From Desulforhabdus amnigena (GTDB lineage: Bacteria; Desulfobacterota; Syntrophobacteria; Syntrophobacterales; Syntrophobacteraceae): 64,000 nt of DNA. Location: assembly GCF_027925305.1 (NCBI RefSeq), contig NZ_BSDR01000001.1, positions 2,631,001-2,695,000 on the forward strand. The letters are read 5' to 3'. The position numbers were made by a program, and so were the translations under genes. This document shows positions 15,797 through 24,721 of this stretch, piece after piece (the first letter of the stretch is position 1; each line of letters starts with the position of its first letter). A model generated the notes under the pieces. The model did not search any database. It was given only the letters and a program-made list of their open reading frames with translations, and was not told the DNA's origin.

Positions 15797-16744
15797 TCAT
15801 CCCGAGCGATCCGCAACCTGCTTTGTATCGGGTTGGTTTGAATTGGCCAGCTGTACTGTAAAATCGAGAATCGCGGCACTTTCCTGATAAGCTCTACGGG
15901 TGAAGTCTCCCAGGTGCTCGGCGCTCCGCTGGAAATCTTCCACAAAAGCGTCCAGGTTTTGCTGGTCGTACCATTCCTCATAGCGGTCGAGCCCTTCCCT
16001 CAGCAACCCGAGAATTTCTTTCGTGTAGGGATTCATCTGAGTGATGGCCGAATAGAGCGCTCCATTCTGGGCGAAAATTCTCCCGAGCATATTCATCTCC
16101 AGGCGATAACTGGGGCTTGTGTATTCCATCGTTTCGGCTATATCCACCCCATAATCCCGAAGCACTCTCCCCGTAAGCATGGTGGTCATGTGAAAAAGCA
16201 CCTGGATGATGCTCATCATGCGGTCGTGCTCCCGGGGCGTGGCCTCCTTGACCTTCACCCCTCTCTCCTCGAAAAGACGGCGCAGGCAGGCCCAATCCGC
16301 AGGTTCGATGCGAACGGGACAAGCCACAAGGGTTTGACCTTTGAAGGAGGAAATGCGTCCGCCAAACATGGGGTGAAGGCCCACGACGCTGGCTTGAGAG
16401 CGCAGCATCTCCCGGATGGGGGGTTCCTTGAGACTCGTAAGATCCATCAGCAGCTGGTCCGGGCGGACATAAGGAATCAGTTCGCGTATGACGGCTACCG
16501 TCTCATGGAGAGGCACGGCAAACAGGACAACGTCCGAATTTTCCACCACCTCCCGGTTGCCAGGCACCGTGGAACGATCTGCAACCGAAATCCTGTACCC
16601 CCACTCTTCAAAAAAGCGAGCGAACAGGCGGCCCATTTCCCCCCTGCCCCCGATGACTCCCATGCGAGCTCCAGGCCCCCATCGCGAAGAGGGTGCCGCA
16701 TTCTTCAAGGCATCAAAATCGGACAAAACCTTACTGTCTGACAT
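15797..16744 (-). CDS. tyrA: Prephenate dehydrogenase
   Basis: 315 residues. NAD(P)-dependent oxidative decarboxylation of prephenate to 4-hydroxyphenylpyruvate, for tyrosine synthesis. GVIGGRGEMGRLFARFF is the Rossmann motif; SDVVLFAVPLHET, LMDLTSLKEPP and VGLHPMFGG are conserved TyrA stretches. A fused chorismate mutase domain is absent. AAGGAAAGG precedes the ATG at 16744; upstream codons in frame are unlikely. The gene is preceded by a Tyr-rich leader peptide and a terminator, so tyrosine-responsive attenuation is expected. Confidence 0.87.
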   Translation of the reverse strand: MSDSKVLSDFDALKNAAPSSRWGPGARMGVIGGRGEMGRLFARFFEEWGYRISVADRSTVPGNREVVENSDVVLFAVPLHETVAVIRELIPYVRPDQLLMDLTSLKEPPIREMLRSQASVVGLHPMFGGRISSFKGQTLVACPVRIEPADWACLRRLFEERGVKVKEATPREHDRMMSIIQVLFHMTTMLTGRVLRDYGVDIAETMEYTSPSYRLEMNMLGRIFAQNGALYSAITQMNPYTKEILGLLREGLDRYEEWYDQQNLDAFVEDFQRSAEHLGDFTRRAYQESAAILDFTVQLANSNQPDTKQVADRSG

Positions 16745-16971: not shown

Positions 16972-17004
16972 AAGCCGTGGGCATCTTCGGGATCCCCACG
17001 GCTT
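16972..17004 (-). terminator. Attenuator terminator upstream of tyrA
   Basis: Read on the minus strand, AAGCCGTGGG pairs perfectly with CCCACGGCTT over 10 bp around a 13-base loop and is followed by a run of T. It lies between the leader peptide stop and tyrA. The loop sequence TCCCGAA can pair with TTCGGGG in the leader codons (17041-17047), a possible competing fold, though this does not invade the stem itself. Confidence 0.85.
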
Positions 17005-17024
17005 ATATGCTTTTCGCTTAGAGC

Positions 17025-17105
17025 CTAGTCGCTGCGTGCACCCCGAACACCACGGTAAGAGCCGCTGCAATAATAGCAATAATAACAGGCATGCAGAGTG
17101 CGCAT
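17025..17105 (-). CDS. Tyr-rich leader peptide of the tyrA attenuator
   Basis: 26 codons, ATG to TAG, with GAGGG 6 bases upstream. The peptide begins MRTLHACYYCYYCSGSYRG: five Tyr codons, four of them within codons 8-12, plus three Cys. Ribosome stalling at these codons when charged tRNA-Tyr is low would alter folding of the following hairpin, as in trp/phe/his leaders of enteric bacteria. The fit between Tyr codons and a downstream prephenate dehydrogenase is the main support. Confidence 0.8.
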   Translation of the reverse strand: MRTLHACYYCYYCSGSYRGVRGARSD

Positions 17106-17142
17106 TCAGTTCCCTCGCTGTTTCGTATCAATGTCAGCTGAT

Positions 17143-17171
17143 TCTTAAACAAAACAAACCCGGGTTGTCAA
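17143..17171 (-). promoter_or_regulatory. Candidate promoter of the tyrA leader
   Basis: TTGACA (17166-17171, minus strand) followed after 17-18 bases by TTAAGAAT as a poor -10, some 40-60 bases before the leader ATG. Confidence 0.45.
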
Positions 17172-17319: not shown

Positions 17320-17427
17320 GGTGACGGAACTACGGAGCCTCTTGCTTTGTCCGTTCCACTTTATTATAAGCTCAGAACTCGTTAACTTATATTCAAAGTA
17401 ATCAAAAAGGTGGAATGCAGCAGCGCA

Positions 17428-18162
17428 ATGAATGCACCAGAATCTCATCAAAATTTCCCGAAAGAACGCAACCGGTCTCGCGACTCCGTTTATGCGGCGC
17501 CGCGAGAAAAAATAGGGGATTTCGTCTTCGACGAAACCGTTGCGGATGTATTCCCCGATATGATTCAGAGATCCGTGCCGGGATACGACACGATCACCTC
17601 CCTGATCGGCGTCCTGGCCGGCCGCTACGCACAGCCAAACAGCACCTGCTATGATCTCGGATGCTCCCTGGGAGCCGCCACGCTCTCCATGCGCAGGCGC
17701 CTGCACCAGCCCGGCTGCCGCATCGTTGCGGTGGACAATTCCGAGGCCATGATCAGACGCTGCCGGCAAAATATCGATGCCGACGCTTCCGCCCCCCCCG
17801 TCGATATCCTGTGCACCGATATCCTGGATGTCAAAATTCGAAACGCCTCGGTGGTGGTCCTCAACTTCATTTTGCAGTTCATTCATCCGGAACAGCGCCT
17901 CCAGGCGCTCTCGAACATTTACCAAGGTCTGTTGCCGGGAGGAATTTTGATTCTCTCGGAAAAGATCCGTTTTTCCGATCTCAAACAGCAGACATTCCAC
18001 ACGGAAATGCACTATGCGTTCAAGAAAGACAACGGCTACAGCGATCTTGAAATCAGTCAAAAGCGCGCAGCGCTGGAGAAGGTACTGATTCCGGAGACTC
18101 TGACCGAACACCGGGAGCGTCTGCTCGCCGCCGGTTTCGCCCGGTGCGACGTGTGGTTTTAA
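17428..18162 (+). CDS. cmoA: Carboxy-SAM synthase, truncated at the C-terminus by an ochre stop
   Basis: Makes carboxy-S-adenosylmethionine from SAM and prephenate for CmoB. 244 residues with EVFPDMIQRSVPGY-type motif (VADVFPDMIQRSVPGYDTI) and SAM site CYDLGCSLGAATLSMRRRL. It ends DVWF at TAA 18160-18162, but the frame then reads CLNFASLFARK to a TGA at 18196-18198 that overlaps the cmoB ATG. The family normally reads VWFQCFNF here, so one C-to-T change turned Gln into a stop and removed about 12 residues. The start is uncertain: ATG 17428 or GTG 17410. Its substrate prephenate is also that of neighbouring tyrA. Confidence 0.85.
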   Translation: MNAPESHQNFPKERNRSRDSVYAAPREKIGDFVFDETVADVFPDMIQRSVPGYDTITSLIGVLAGRYAQPNSTCYDLGCSLGAATLSMRRRLHQPGCRIVAVDNSEAMIRRCRQNIDADASAPPVDILCTDILDVKIRNASVVVLNFILQFIHPEQRLQALSNIYQGLLPGGILILSEKIRFSDLKQQTFHTEMHYAFKKDNGYSDLEISQKRAALEKVLIPETLTEHRERLLAAGFARCDVWF

Positions 18163-19405: not shown

Positions 19406-20446
19406 ATGCAAGGACCTCTGAAAGTTGCCGTATTGGGTACAGGGCGGATGGGCTGCGGCATCATCCGGCTTCTCTTTCAAAAAAAAGGGCTGGAGCTGAC
19501 CGGCGTTTACGGTCGTAGAACCGACCGGGCAGGGATCGATATCGGAAAGGCAGTGGGACTTGCAGAGGAAATCGGGATCAAAATATCGAACGACCTTCCG
19601 GCTCTGCTGAAAAAGGCAAAAGCTCACGTGGTGATCCAGGCCACATGCTCCAGGGTCTCCGAGGCTGCGGAAGAAATCAGAACCGCTCTTCACCAGGGAG
19701 CAAACGTCATTTCCATTGCAGAAGAAATGGCATATCCCGCCTGCCAATCCCCGCTCATCGCCAAAGAACTCCATGCGCTCGCTCTGCAAAAGAAAGTGAC
19801 CGTCCTCGGAACCGGCATCAACCCGGGATTCGTGCTCGATCTTCTGGTGATCGCTCTCACAGGCGTGTGCTGGAAAGTGGAATCCATTACGGCAAAGCGG
19901 GTGAACGACCTCTCTCCTTACGGCCCATCCGTTCTGGCGGCCCAGGGAGTGGGTGTCACCCCTGAAGCGTTCCAAAAAGGCGTGGCGGAGGGTTCCATCG
20001 TCGGACACATGGGATTTCCCGAATCCATCGGCATGATTGCCAAAGCTCTCGGCTGGGAAATCGACAGGATCGAAGAGATCCGCAGCCCCATCGTTTCCAG
20101 GGTGAAGCGCGAAACCCCTTTCGTGAAAATCGAACCGGGGCTCACCGCAGGCTGTAACCACACTGCACTGGCCTATCGTGACGGCAATCCGGTCATCCAC
20201 CTGGTGCACCCTCAACAGGTGCACCCACACCTGGAAGGCGTCGAAACGGGGGATTCCATAAAAATAGAGGGCGAGCCCAATGTCCATTTTTCCGGCAGTC
20301 CGGAAATCCCCGGTGGTATCGGCACGATCGCCCTGGCCGTCAACATGATTCCCCATGTCGTCAATGCTCCCCCCGGGCTGAAATCCATGGCGGATCTCCC
20401 CGTACCCGCAGCCTTCATGGGGGACATACGTACACTGCTCCAATAA
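19406..20446 (+). CDS. ord: 2,4-diaminopentanoate dehydrogenase
   Basis: 346 residues. Oxidatively deaminates (2R,4S)-2,4-diaminopentanoate to 2-amino-4-oxopentanoate with NAD(P)+. GTGRMGCGIIRLL near residue 11 is the nucleotide-binding motif; VLGTGINPGFVLDLL and a dihydrodipicolinate-reductase-like fold support the family. Assignment is strengthened by the next four genes, which are the rest of the D-ornithine oxidative pathway known from Clostridium sticklandii in the same order. GGGAGG is upstream of the ATG. First gene of the cluster; about 235 bp of non-coding sequence precede it. Confidence 0.88.
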   Translation: MQGPLKVAVLGTGRMGCGIIRLLFQKKGLELTGVYGRRTDRAGIDIGKAVGLAEEIGIKISNDLPALLKKAKAHVVIQATCSRVSEAAEEIRTALHQGANVISIAEEMAYPACQSPLIAKELHALALQKKVTVLGTGINPGFVLDLLVIALTGVCWKVESITAKRVNDLSPYGPSVLAAQGVGVTPEAFQKGVAEGSIVGHMGFPESIGMIAKALGWEIDRIEEIRSPIVSRVKRETPFVKIEPGLTAGCNHTALAYRDGNPVIHLVHPQQVHPHLEGVETGDSIKIEGEPNVHFSGSPEIPGGIGTIALAVNMIPHVVNAPPGLKSMADLPVPAAFMGDIRTLLQ

Positions 20447-20465
20447 AATCGAAGGGAGACGGCCA

Positions 20466-20780
20466 ATGGCTGAACGCGCAGAGAAAGGTTCCTGGGTTGA
20501 AATTCACGGCATCGTGCTGGAAAAGGGTGAAAGAGCTCCACAGGTTCCCGAGGACACGCAAAGGGTCCCTCTGGAAATGAAGGTCAAGGGATTTCTGGTC
20601 CATGACGCCGTGGTGGGCGGGGAAGCTGAAATCGTCACGCCCGCCGGCCGGACGCTCAGGGGAAAACTCACAGCGGTCAATCCGCCGTACACGCACATGT
20701 TTGGTTCCCCGATTCCCGAACTCTCACGCATAGGAGGCGAAGTACGGGCGATTCTCAGGGAAAAGGGGCAGGCACAATGA
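20466..20780 (+). CDS. ortA: 2-amino-4-oxopentanoate thiolase, alpha subunit
   Basis: 104 residues. Small subunit of the PLP thiolase that splits 2-amino-4-oxopentanoate with CoA into acetyl-CoA and D-alanine. Contains the family stretches WVEIHGIVLEKGERAPQVPE and NPPYTHMFGSPIPEL. No catalytic domain of its own. GAAGGGAGA lies upstream; it overlaps ortB by 4 bases. Confidence 0.88.
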   Translation: MAERAEKGSWVEIHGIVLEKGERAPQVPEDTQRVPLEMKVKGFLVHDAVVGGEAEIVTPAGRTLRGKLTAVNPPYTHMFGSPIPELSRIGGEVRAILREKGQAQ

Positions 20781-22201
20781 ATCCCCGCGATAGCTATGAA
20801 TCCATAATGGCTCAGCGCACAGAAATCATGCGCTCTTCCGTCGGCATCGATTACGCTCGATACATCACTGGCCCCCTTTCCTTCGATTACGAAAGGCTGC
20901 TCGCCGACACCGGTTATGACCTTCAAACGATCCGTTCCATCCAGAGCGAGACCGGAGTGGGCAACACCCCCATGGTCGAACTCAGGAATCTCACCGGGCT
21001 TGCCCGCGCCGTTTCCAAGCCGGGAATGGGAGCGCGCATCTTTTTAAAGGACGAAGCAGCCAACCCTTCGGGGTCGTTCAAGGACCGCAGGGCCTCCCTT
21101 TCAGCTCATGAAGCGAAAAAGCGCGGCTACAGAGGAATTGCCGCGGCGACGAGCGGCAACTACGGTGCGGCGGTGGCTTCACAGGCGGCGAAAGCGGGCC
21201 TTCGATGCATCATCGTGCAGGAAGCCTTTGACAGCAAAGGGGTCGCGCAGCCGGAAATCGCTGAAAAAACGAGGGCCTGCGAAGCATACGGAGCGGAAGT
21301 CGTCCGGCTCTCCGTAGGTCCGGAACTCTTTTACGTCTTTCTTGCGGTGCTCAAAGAAACCGGGTACTTCAACGCTTCCCTCTACACCCCCTACTCCATC
21401 CTCGGAATCGAAACCCTGGGCTATGAGCTCGCCCTGCAGATCCAGACTGGGGAGGGAAGATTTCCCGATGTGGTGGTCGCCACGCATGCGGGGGGCGGGA
21501 ACGTCACGGGCACGGCCCGAGGGCTCCTGAAAGCGGGTGCGGCGGAGACCCGAGTGGTTGCCGCAAGCGTGGACCTTTCCGGCCTCCATATGGCTTCGGA
21601 CCGCGATTTCAATCGCAAGTCCTTCACCACCGGCCATACGGGCTTTTCCATTCCCTTTTCCACCTGGCCCGACAGGGCGGACGTGCCGAGAAACGCGGCA
21701 CGGGCCCTTCGTTACATGGACCGCTTCGTTACAGTGACTCAAGGAGAGGTCTTTTATATCACGCAGGTCCTCGCTGAAATCGAGGGACTGGAACGCGGCC
21801 CGGCGGGAAACACCTCGCTCGCCGCCGCATTTGCCATGGCGCGACGGATGGAGCGGGACCAGATCATCGTCGTGCAGGAAACCGAATACACGGGAGCCGG
21901 CAAGCATCCATCCGCACAATTGAATCTCGCAAAACAAATGGGCATTGAGGTGGTGCGTGGGGATCCCGGAGCGAGCAAGCCGGGAAAATCCATCGTCATC
22001 CCGGAGCATCCCGCTCAAATTGAGGCCGTGGATGTGGACCTGGACCGGCTCAGAAGGTCCTACCTGCGAAATGCCCTTCATTCCCTTGGGGAGAAGCGGT
22101 TTCCCACCGAAACCGATGTGCGATTTTTGGCAGCCGATACAAAATCAACTCAGGACTATGTTCGGGAGGTGATTCATGAGCATTACGGAAAGAGCGGATG
22201 A
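20777..22201 (+). CDS. ortB: 2-amino-4-oxopentanoate thiolase, beta subunit (PLP)
   Basis: 474 residues, fold-type II PLP protein related to threonine synthase. The PLP lysine is in NPSGSFKDRRAS (K102), and the phosphate loop looks like ATSGNYGAAVAS with a later HAGGGNVTG. Catalyses the thiolytic cleavage that yields acetyl-CoA and D-alanine. Start overlaps ortA by 4 bases; its end overlaps oraS by 26 bases, so the genes are translationally coupled. Confidence 0.9.
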   Translation: MNPRDSYESIMAQRTEIMRSSVGIDYARYITGPLSFDYERLLADTGYDLQTIRSIQSETGVGNTPMVELRNLTGLARAVSKPGMGARIFLKDEAANPSGSFKDRRASLSAHEAKKRGYRGIAAATSGNYGAAVASQAAKAGLRCIIVQEAFDSKGVAQPEIAEKTRACEAYGAEVVRLSVGPELFYVFLAVLKETGYFNASLYTPYSILGIETLGYELALQIQTGEGRFPDVVVATHAGGGNVTGTARGLLKAGAAETRVVAASVDLSGLHMASDRDFNRKSFTTGHTGFSIPFSTWPDRADVPRNAARALRYMDRFVTVTQGEVFYITQVLAEIEGLERGPAGNTSLAAAFAMARRMERDQIIVVQETEYTGAGKHPSAQLNLAKQMGIEVVRGDPGASKPGKSIVIPEHPAQIEAVDVDLDRLRRSYLRNALHSLGEKRFPTETDVRFLAADTKSTQDYVREVIHEHYGKSG

Positions 22202-22529
22202 CTTCAAAACCCGGCGACAACATTTAGAAAAAATGTCCGATGAGGAACTGCACACGTATTTTTGGACTTTGGTGAATCAGATCGTTCAGCCCCTCGTGGA
22301 GGAAGCCAAAACCCATACTTCTCCTTCCATCGAACGGTCGGTGCTCCTGCGGATGGGCTTTTCCAGTCTGGAAGCAAAGTCCATCGTCAATACTATGCTC
22401 GAGAAGGGAATTCTCGGCCACGGCGCGGGGAACCTCATCCTTCGGCTCGCACGAAAGAAGGGCATTGCCGTACGGGAGGCTGGGCTTGCATTGATGGACG
22501 GAAAATATTGGGAGGAGGTGGCAGGATGA
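22176..22529 (+). CDS. oraS: D-ornithine 4,5-aminomutase, S subunit
   Basis: 117 residues, close to the C. sticklandii small subunit. Helical, with ERSVLLRMGFSSLEAKSIV and GAGNLILRLARKKG. It partners OraE in the adenosylcobalamin- and PLP-dependent move of the delta-amino group of D-ornithine to C4, forming 2,4-diaminopentanoate. Start is inside the end of ortB; stop overlaps the oraE ATG (ATGA). Confidence 0.88.
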   Translation: MSITERADDFKTRRQHLEKMSDEELHTYFWTLVNQIVQPLVEEAKTHTSPSIERSVLLRMGFSSLEAKSIVNTMLEKGILGHGAGNLILRLARKKGIAVREAGLALMDGKYWEEVAG

Positions 22530-24721
22530 AATCCCTGGTCCCGGAAAAGAAAATCGACATCCAGGAAGTGCTCGAGGATTTGGACAAATACCGCCCCAAG
22601 CGAAAGGGATGGAGCTGGCGCAGGCATATTGAAAACCAGGAGATCGGCCCCTTCGTCTTCAAGGAAACGTCGCAAAACCTCAAAAATTCCGTGCCGCTTC
22701 CTTCAGCCCGGCACCTGGGGAACATAGATCCTCAATGCGATGTGGTGATCACGACGGAAATCGCATCCGGGCGGTTCGAAGACGATATCCGGCGCATGCG
22801 CATGGCGGCATGGCACGGAGCGGACCACATCATGGTCATCCGCACCGTGGGCCAGTCGCACTTCGACGGACTCATTGAAGGCACACCGGAGGGAGTGGGT
22901 GGAATCCCCATCACGAGAAAGCAGCTTCGAGCAACGCGCAAAGCCCTGGACGCCATCGAGGAGGAGGTGGGGAGGCCCATCAACTTCCATTCCTACGTGA
23001 GCGGAGTCGCGGGCCCGGAAATTGCCGTCATGTTTGCTGAAGAAGGTGTAAATGGAGCCCACCAGGACCCCCAGTACAACGTGCTCTACAGAAACATCAA
23101 CATGCACCGTTCCTTCGTGGATGCCGCCGAAGCCAAAACGATCATGGCCGGAGCGGGAATCCTTCAGATCGACGGGGCGCATAATGCCAATGCCACGGCC
23201 AAAGAAGCCTGGAAGGTCATGCCGGAGCTCTTCGTGCAGCACGCCGTCAATGCGGCATTTTCCCTGGCGGTAGGCATGCCGAGGGAATTCATCGCTCTTT
23301 CCACGGTCCCTCCCACTGCACCCCCCGCACCCAAAATGCGTCTCGACCTCCCCTATGCCGTGGCGCTCCGGGAGATTTTCAAGGGGTTCAAATTCCGTGC
23401 TCAACAGAACACACGGTACATGGAAGCGGACATGGCCGAAGCGACCATCACCCATGTGCTCGACACATTGATTACCAGCATGACTCCCACCGACATTCAG
23501 AGCACCATCACCCCGGATGAAGGACGCAACGTGCCCTGGCATTACAACAACATCCTGGGAGTGAATACCGGCCGGCAGACCCTCATGGGAACGGACGGAC
23601 TCATGGAGATGGTCGAACTGAAAAGGGAGGGCAGCCTGCCTGAAAAGGTTCGGGAATTGAAGGAACGCGCCGTTCTTTTCCTGGAGGAAATCCTTGAAGC
23701 GGGAGGTTATTTTGCTGCGGTGGAAGAAGGGCATTTCGTGGATTCGGGTTGTTTTCCCGAAAGAAAGGGAGATGGAATCGTCCGAGATCCCCACGGCGGA
23801 GTTGCCGCCGATTCCATCATAAAGCGTGAACCCGATTACGGCGCTCCCGTCTGCTGCCATTTCGGTGACAACGTTTATGCACCAAAGGACGAAAAGCCTT
23901 GCGGTTCATACGGGGGATGCACCCTCTGTGATCCCTCCAAGATTCAGTATATCGATGAACTGGACCCAATGGACAATGTACACAAACGCCTTGAAAAACC
24001 CCTCGAGGAAAAAGCCGCCGGATGGGTGCGGCCCGAAGTCGAATGGTCCGGGGACGGTATAGTGTGCGTCACCCTTTTTATCCCCGAGGAACCCGAAGTG
24101 GCGGAAGCGGCGGCCCTCAAGATGGCGGAAAAAATGGGGCTCTTGAACCCGGAAGTGATCAGCAGGCGGCTCATGCACCCTGCGGAAGGAAGCCTCTTTG
24201 AGGTCAAGGGAAGGCTCGATTATGCGGTGAAAAGGGATGAACTGGTCCTTCAGAAAAAAGAGGAAAGCTTACCCGACAAGGAAATCGAGGCCTATGTCCG
24301 GCCAAGAGACATCCATGTCGTGGGGGCCACAGTGGGGCAGGATGAACATTCCGTCGGATTGAGAGAGATTCTGGACATCAAGCATGGAGGCATTGAAAGG
24401 TACGGCTTCCAATGCCACTACCTGGGAACTTCGGTTTCTCTTTCCCGGGTCCTGGATGCCGTTGAGGAGACGGGCGCACGCATTGTTTTGATCTCCACCA
24501 TAGTAACTCACAACGACATTCACAAGACCAACATGAAAAAACTCCATGACCTGGCCGTCGAACGGGGCTTGCGGAATAAGGTGCTCCTCATCGCCGGCGG
24601 CACCCAGGTGACCGACGAAATGGCCAGGGCCTGCGGCATGGACGCAGGATTCGGAAGGGGCGCCAAGGGGCGCCAGGTGGCCACATTCATTGTCAGAAAC
24701 CTTAGTGGGGTCAGCCCTTGA
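22526..24721 (+). CDS. oraE: D-ornithine 4,5-aminomutase, E subunit (B12 and PLP)
   Basis: 731 residues, the usual length. An N-terminal TIM-barrel part (from about 40 to 500) is followed by a C-terminal Rossmann cobalamin domain with DEHSVGLREILD, the D-x-H-x-x-G motif whose His ligates cobalt, and a Thr/Gly-rich IAGGTQVT strand. The ATG at 22526 is preceded by GGAGGAGG. The last four residues (GVSP) and the TGA are encoded by the REP end of the transposase element, so the native C-terminus may have been altered by that insertion. Confidence 0.92.
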   Translation: MKSLVPEKKIDIQEVLEDLDKYRPKRKGWSWRRHIENQEIGPFVFKETSQNLKNSVPLPSARHLGNIDPQCDVVITTEIASGRFEDDIRRMRMAAWHGADHIMVIRTVGQSHFDGLIEGTPEGVGGIPITRKQLRATRKALDAIEEEVGRPINFHSYVSGVAGPEIAVMFAEEGVNGAHQDPQYNVLYRNINMHRSFVDAAEAKTIMAGAGILQIDGAHNANATAKEAWKVMPELFVQHAVNAAFSLAVGMPREFIALSTVPPTAPPAPKMRLDLPYAVALREIFKGFKFRAQQNTRYMEADMAEATITHVLDTLITSMTPTDIQSTITPDEGRNVPWHYNNILGVNTGRQTLMGTDGLMEMVELKREGSLPEKVRELKERAVLFLEEILEAGGYFAAVEEGHFVDSGCFPERKGDGIVRDPHGGVAADSIIKREPDYGAPVCCHFGDNVYAPKDEKPCGSYGGCTLCDPSKIQYIDELDPMDNVHKRLEKPLEEKAAGWVRPEVEWSGDGIVCVTLFIPEEPEVAEAAALKMAEKMGLLNPEVISRRLMHPAEGSLFEVKGRLDYAVKRDELVLQKKEESLPDKEIEAYVRPRDIHVVGATVGQDEHSVGLREILDIKHGGIERYGFQCHYLGTSVSLSRVLDAVEETGARIVLISTIVTHNDIHKTNMKKLHDLAVERGLRNKVLLIAGGTQVTDEMARACGMDAGFGRGAKGRQVATFIVRNLSGVSP

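Follow-up and report, generated by a model that had tools for sequence, protein, structure and literature searches.

A putative tyrosine-sensing leader-peptide attenuator with two terminators upstream of tyrA in Desulforhabdus amnigena, and related leaders of aromatic genes in Desulfobacterota

The trp and pheA attenuators of Escherichia coli work by a logic of protector, antiterminator and terminator, with a single terminator in each. Both trp and pheL are named as attenuator leaders (PMC11802643), and leader-peptide attenuation has been listed for trp, phe, thr, leu and his, with tyrosine not among them (PMC10989985). In the his attenuator of Salmonella and E. coli, read-through is brought about by the pairings B:C and D:E, which stand against A:B and E:F (PMC4046918, PMC10989985). 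Leaders of aromatic genes have been described as well. The aroR leader, which is located before aroF of Corynebacterium glutamicum and contains Phe-Tyr-Phe, is reported to respond to phenylalanine and not to tyrosine (Neshat 2014, as cited in PMC11802643), and the uORFC-13-1 motif of Acholeplasma aroF combines an upstream ORF with Phe codons and a terminator before a DAHP synthase gene (PMC8632094). For a sulphate reducer, Table 7 of Song et al. 2005 gives a putative attenuator from the Merino database before the aroA'-aroB'-pheA-aroF-tyrA operon of D. vulgaris (PMC1173090), and a survey of Actinobacteria reports T-boxes for tyrosine (PMC1262725).

Here, we analyzed a stretch of 64,000 nucleotides of the D. 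amnigena genome (NZ_BSDR01000001.1, positions 2,631,001 to 2,695,000; referred to as the window), for which a tyrosine attenuator with a leader peptide controlling tyrA had been proposed. All of the attenuator elements and tyrA are located on the minus strand, in the order TTGACA, Shine-Dalgarno sequence, 26-codon ORF, terminator T1, terminator T2 and tyrA. The TTGACA noted upstream of the leader is present as an exact sequence at 17171-17166 and is a probable -35 element, which also occurs 5' of most of the aligned leaders with enough upstream sequence. The -10 element is weak (TTTAAG, at a spacing of 16 nt), and a simple promoter scan found none. The downstream gene was correctly identified as tyrA, since its product is a prephenate dehydrogenase with PDH_N (1.2e-17) and PDH_C (4.2e-12) domains, which shares 76% identity with TyrA of Desulforhabdus sp. 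TSK, the nearest named genome. The ORF spans 16795-15797, and a start at 16744 is favored because of homology and the AAAGGAAAGG site. As a convergent DtxR-family gene follows, tyrA appears to be monocistronic; on its other side, the leader separates it from the divergent cmoA gene (17410-18162, plus strand). Elsewhere in the window (19406-24721, plus strand), a gene for 2,4-diaminopentanoate dehydrogenase adjoins ORFs for a PLP-dependent enzyme and aminomutase-like proteins, which looks like a cluster for ornithine degradation.

The leader ORF encodes the 26-residue peptide MRTLHACYYCYYCSGSYRGVRGARSD (17105-17025; this and the other leader frames given below end at a stop codon), is preceded by the Shine-Dalgarno sequence GAGGGA (17116-17111), and is kept as a Tyr-rich ORF at this place in 23 relatives. 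The four clustered Tyr codons of the original prediction were confirmed and start at 17084, 17081, 17075 and 17072. The ribosome presumably stalls at the Tyr-Tyr-Cys-Tyr-Tyr codons (17084-17070); another Tyr codon, the fifth, had not been counted and is located at 17057-17055. Taken by itself, the Tyr cluster is unremarkable, since TAYTAYNNNTAYTAY is found 12 times in the genome compared to 16 times for the reversed control. What is remarkable about these sites is their position before aromatic genes and not their frequency: three of the 12 stand at the head of transcription units of aromatic genes, and six others that were read either fall within genes or belong to short frames that show no evident leader layout. 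An overlapping hydrophobic ORF (17152-17018) was rejected as the leader, because it is the Tyr frame that is conserved.

The TyrA loci of 30 genomes (our own and those of 29 relatives) were brought into the same orientation and scanned for this arrangement. In 23 relatives, a T1-like terminator was found downstream of a Tyr-rich ORF, so that the Tyr codons and the stem, on whose conservation the proposal had been made to depend, are retained. An alignment (A1) was built from 25 leaders, including the aroFGH leader of our own genome. In most of the relatives, a DAHP synthase-tyrA operon follows the leader, which is mostly located about 1.2-1.45 kb 5' of tyrA, because the DAHP synthase (type Ib) gene lies in between. 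A leader directly before tyrA was only found in our own genome and in Desulfoferrobacter (L021). In Desulforhabdus sp. TSK (L019/L002), no Tyr leader is located directly upstream of tyrA, which there follows an SH3-like gene; the arrangement therefore appears to be labile. The aroFGH gene of the same strain does have a Tyr leader (L091). A leader of this kind had been considered uncommon in Desulfobacterota; the leader itself holds, but its supposed rarity does not, since such leaders are common in the phylum, usually before the DAHP synthase-tyrA operon or other aromatic genes.

Terminator T1 (strands 3:4, 17004-16967 including the T run) consists, as had been predicted, of a perfect 10-bp stem (AAGCCGTGGG-GATCCCGAAGATG-CCCACGGCTT, 17004-16972), which is followed by seven T in a run up to about 16967. 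On the alignment, 97.3% of the cells of T1 are paired, five of nine pairs carry changes on both sides, and no shuffle was as good. A hairpin of GCCGTGGG and CCCACGGC with 3-25 nt between the arms occurs only once in the 4.54 Mb genome, namely at T1, for which reason we rejected GCCGTGGG as a generic terminator stem for our own genome. The original prediction included neither the antiterminator strand nor T2 (strands 5:6, 16947-16910 with its T-rich tail, stem 16947-16917), which was recognized from its sequence and from the comparison of tandem leaders.

An antiterminator fold that excludes the terminator, the other feature on which the proposal had been staked, exists in the window and coevolves across the relatives. 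Strand 2 (GGTGTTCGGGGTGCACGCAGCG, 17051-17030) is located in the last leader codons and pairs with strand 3 (AGCCGTGGGGATCCCGAAGATG, 17003-16982), i.e. the 5' arm and loop of T1, with a duplex energy of -22.6 kcal/mol (shuffle p 0.020). The two strands were assigned by duplex and alignment analysis, with T1 covariation as additional evidence for strand 3. Since the 2:3 pairing shares the 5' arm of T1, strand 3 can pair with either strand 2 or strand 4, and the antiterminator and T1 are mutually exclusive. The consensus of strand 2 at the end of the leader ORF is GGGTATGC. Over the 25 leaders, the mean z of the duplex is -2.25, and the native mean of 2:3 was never reached when leaders were re-paired with the terminators of other species (0/1000); the shuffle test was weak in L020, L026, L040, L044 and L046. 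On the alignment, 72.9% of the antiterminator cells pair compared to 27-52% in slid controls, with changes on both sides in 9 of the 16 pairs. The strands, their conservation and their coevolution are in this way established computationally. Equilibrium folding of the leader did not reproduce the switch in most species, and the pairings were therefore tested by duplex, swap and truncated-transcript analysis; the single consensus of RNAalifold contains T1 only, since strand 3 is common to both of the mutually exclusive folds.

As a rule, the end of strand 2 lies 4-6 nt upstream of the leader stop codon, so that a ribosome that has reached the stop codon would cover it, whereas one halted on the Tyr codons would leave it free. 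The leader ORFs of L021 and L025 are closed by an earlier stop codon and strand 2 is retained after it, which places the constraint on the RNA. Strand 1, the start of the leader (17105-17088), can pair with strand 2 as a protector according to the MFE fold; this pairing is supported by swaps over the whole set (0/5000) and is not significant for the window leader alone. In addition, ACCGTGG within the leader (17061-17055) can pair with CCCACGG in the 3' arm of T1 (16982-16976), which would extend the antiterminator; visual inspection of two relatives did not reveal this extension.

The two terminators are themselves connected by a potential pairing. Strand 4, the 3' arm of T1 (16984-16972), and strand 5, the 5' arm of T2 (16947-16934), which were both assigned by duplex and tandem-leader tests, are complementary with -22.5 kcal/mol in the window, and 4:5 and 5:6 represent a second set of mutually exclusive pairings, as in a his-type relay. 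It is possible, though rather unlikely, that T2 is a mere back-up terminator of a leader attenuator without any relay, and that the complementarity of 4:5 is a by-product of the similarity of T1 and T2. This would be in line with the related arms of the two terminators, with the many relatives that carry T1 only, and with L037, in which strand 5 is kept about 30 nt after T1 (11-nt match to the T1 3' arm) without a T2 hairpin with a T run. However, pairing 3:6, which served as a control because it is expected to be equally complementary if T1 and T2 merely share their origin, is weaker than 4:5 in 32 of the 37 tandem leaders (Wilcoxon p 2e-6); since related genomes are not independent, one leader per cluster was considered in the first set of 20 tandem leaders, which gave p 6e-4. 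Moreover, 4:5 is partner-specific, the native pairing beating all swaps (0/5000, 37 leaders), whereas 3:6 is not (739/2000), and in L102 the complementarity of 4:5 even continues into the T2 loop. These results imply a six-strand relay as in the his attenuator, but with two putative terminators. With a ribosome on an early Tyr codon (the second) and a polymerase that has just passed strand 5, the free optimum combines 2:3 with 4:5. In the fully transcribed leader, T1 or T2 is favored at equilibrium, so that the switch would have to be kinetic.

The locus thus unites the features of a leader attenuator, i.e. an ORF with a ribosome-binding site, conserved cognate codons, a terminator and an exclusive antiterminator, and the original prediction is supported computationally by the conserved ORF, the terminator and the coevolving antiterminator. 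Judged from the sequences, the element is most likely a ribosome-mediated transcription attenuator that senses tyrosine via charged tRNA-Tyr and controls tyrA, to which we assign a probability of roughly 0.88. From the arrangement of the strands we infer ribosome stalling, a kinetic order of folding and a response to tyrosine. If tyrosine is sufficient, the ribosome would pass the Tyr codons up to the stop codon and mask strand 2, upon which 3:4 and 5:6 would form T1 and T2 and transcription would end before tyrA. If tyrosine is short, the ribosome would halt on the Tyr codons and leave strand 2 free to pair with strand 3; this antiterminator would block T1 and free strand 4, which could then pair with strand 5 and thereby disarm T2, so that RNA polymerase would reach tyrA. 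In an untranslated leader, strand 2 may be bound by strand 1, and the terminators would form.

A combined sensing of tyrosine and cysteine is improbable, although the Cys codons had been suggested as a second signal. The window leader contains three Cys codons and the Tyr runs of the relatives often include Cys, but the Cys codons have no fixed position and are absent from several leaders, and neither tyrA nor the other downstream genes are linked to cysteine. Irrespective of its cause, the frequency of Cys codons in or beside the Tyr runs is unusual (17087-17067 in the window; A1 leaders), while His, Asn and Asp codons, which like Cys codons are one step away from Tyr codons, are nearly absent.

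Besides tyrA, the D. amnigena genome contains paralogous leaders whose codons match the downstream pathway (Tyr, Phe/Tyr, Phe or Trp). A Tyr leader (MVQLIFSGLFGYYYFYYYTTRLPEVR) precedes an aroFGH-type DAHP synthase gene, a Phe/Tyr leader (MTGQAFFDYYFYYYFPASGELR) precedes the genes for DHQ synthase II and chorismate mutase-prephenate dehydratase (pheA), and a Trp leader (MSECLITKTCFWRWWRKSGREVCAVKI; L049, G000:C1 near 2720965) precedes DAHP synthase-trpE. The T1 and T2 of this Trp leader have quite different sequences and keep the 4:5 complementarity. A Phe-rich frame with hairpins (FGYFFGFFFFFFRPIHLVW; L048, G000:C1 near 3245066), which is located before a DAHP synthase-prephenate dehydratase-ACT fusion, is a probable Phe attenuator. 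This match of codons and pathway bears on the very unlikely case that the ORF and the terminators are unrelated to tyrA control and represent a small RNA independent of tyrosine or a small protein with a function of its own. Short terminated attenuator transcripts can act in trans, as is described for peTrpL of S. meliloti (PMC7298713), but conservation of the peptide is limited to the Tyr runs and to the part that overlaps strand 2, and in L021 and L025 the position of strand 2 after the stop again points to the RNA. Least credible of all is a T-box or another riboswitch that senses tyrosine next to an incidental short ORF: RNA control of this kind has been described for tyrosine genes (PMC1262725), but the T-box covariance model RF00230, which matches in B. 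subtilis and other controls, has 0 matches in our own genome, no Rfam family matches in the window at gathering score (best weak match E 0.027, far below gathering scores), and the ORF and the switching strands take up the element of about 140 nt.

Beyond this genome, a covariance model of the attenuator (R1) was matched at E 0.01 by 38 of 39 genomes from the order, at E 1e-3 by 51 of 55 genomes from the class, and at E 1e-4 by 156 of 395 genomes sampled from the phylum; these counts include the training sequences, which match by construction. All of the 21 high-scoring phylum loci that were read (L135-L155) have an aromatic-rich ORF before a terminator, and the genes recognized downstream encode ADH synthase, DHQ synthase II, chorismate mutase-prephenate dehydratase and DAHP synthases; in other members of the class, trpE and genes for LivJ-type binding proteins follow the leaders. 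Some of the weaker R1 matches are ordinary terminators (L107, L127), because similar stems in some relatives are plain or bidirectional terminators. L152 carries tandem Tyr-rich leader ORFs (MQVYYYYYYYYTKGRNLPAY and MEFFVTLKNKSFKTESYYYYYYWRGSP, about 1470-1760, reverse complement), each with its own terminator-like hairpin. Tyr-rich leaders with T1/T2-like terminators were also observed before genes for LivJ-type periplasmic binding proteins (L096, L103, L105, L106, L123, L125, L126, L130, L131 and L134), of which the L105 protein has a Peripla_BP_6 domain; we predict that these LivJ-type ABC systems serve the uptake of tyrosine or aromatic compounds. Taken together, we lean towards a phylum-wide regulon of aromatic genes under leader-peptide control, with tyrosine-specific members, often with a two-terminator relay, and with leaders that identify LivJ-type ABC systems as transporters of tyrosine or aromatic compounds. 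This suggests that much of the aromatic synthesis in the phylum is controlled by leaders, whose codons could serve to infer the specificity of DAHP synthase isozymes and of transporters that are otherwise only known as periplasmic binding proteins.

Among the described systems, the switching order resembles that of the his operon attenuator, which likewise has a leader peptide with a run of cognate codons and six strands, the corresponding alternatives here being 2:3 plus 4:5 versus 3:4 plus 5:6. The his attenuator differs in that it senses histidine and has a U run on the E:F hairpin only, so that its last hairpin alone is a terminator, whereas both T1 and T2 have T-rich tails here; in addition, strand 2 falls within the last part of the leader ORF in our case. 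The trp and pheA attenuators of E. coli share the protector, antiterminator and terminator logic, but differ in amino acid, phylum and sequence and have a single terminator. The aroR leader of C. glutamicum is also an aromatic leader before a DAHP synthase operon, but belongs to the Actinobacteria and is reported to respond to phenylalanine, and uORFC-13-1 resembles our element in its upstream ORF and terminator and differs in its Phe codons, phylum and structure. The putative D. vulgaris attenuator shares the tyrA-containing operon and the sulphate-reducing host, but is given in the cited table as a structure-only prediction, with no leader peptide or tyrosine codons described there. A phrase search of the open-licence literature for a tyrosine leader or attenuator found none, and our claim of novelty is limited to that literature. 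Within it, the predicted mechanism would be attenuation of the trp/his type, and its tyrosine-specific two-terminator form would be new; if the coupling of the two terminators holds true, it could make the off-state tighter and the response more switch-like than in a single attenuator.
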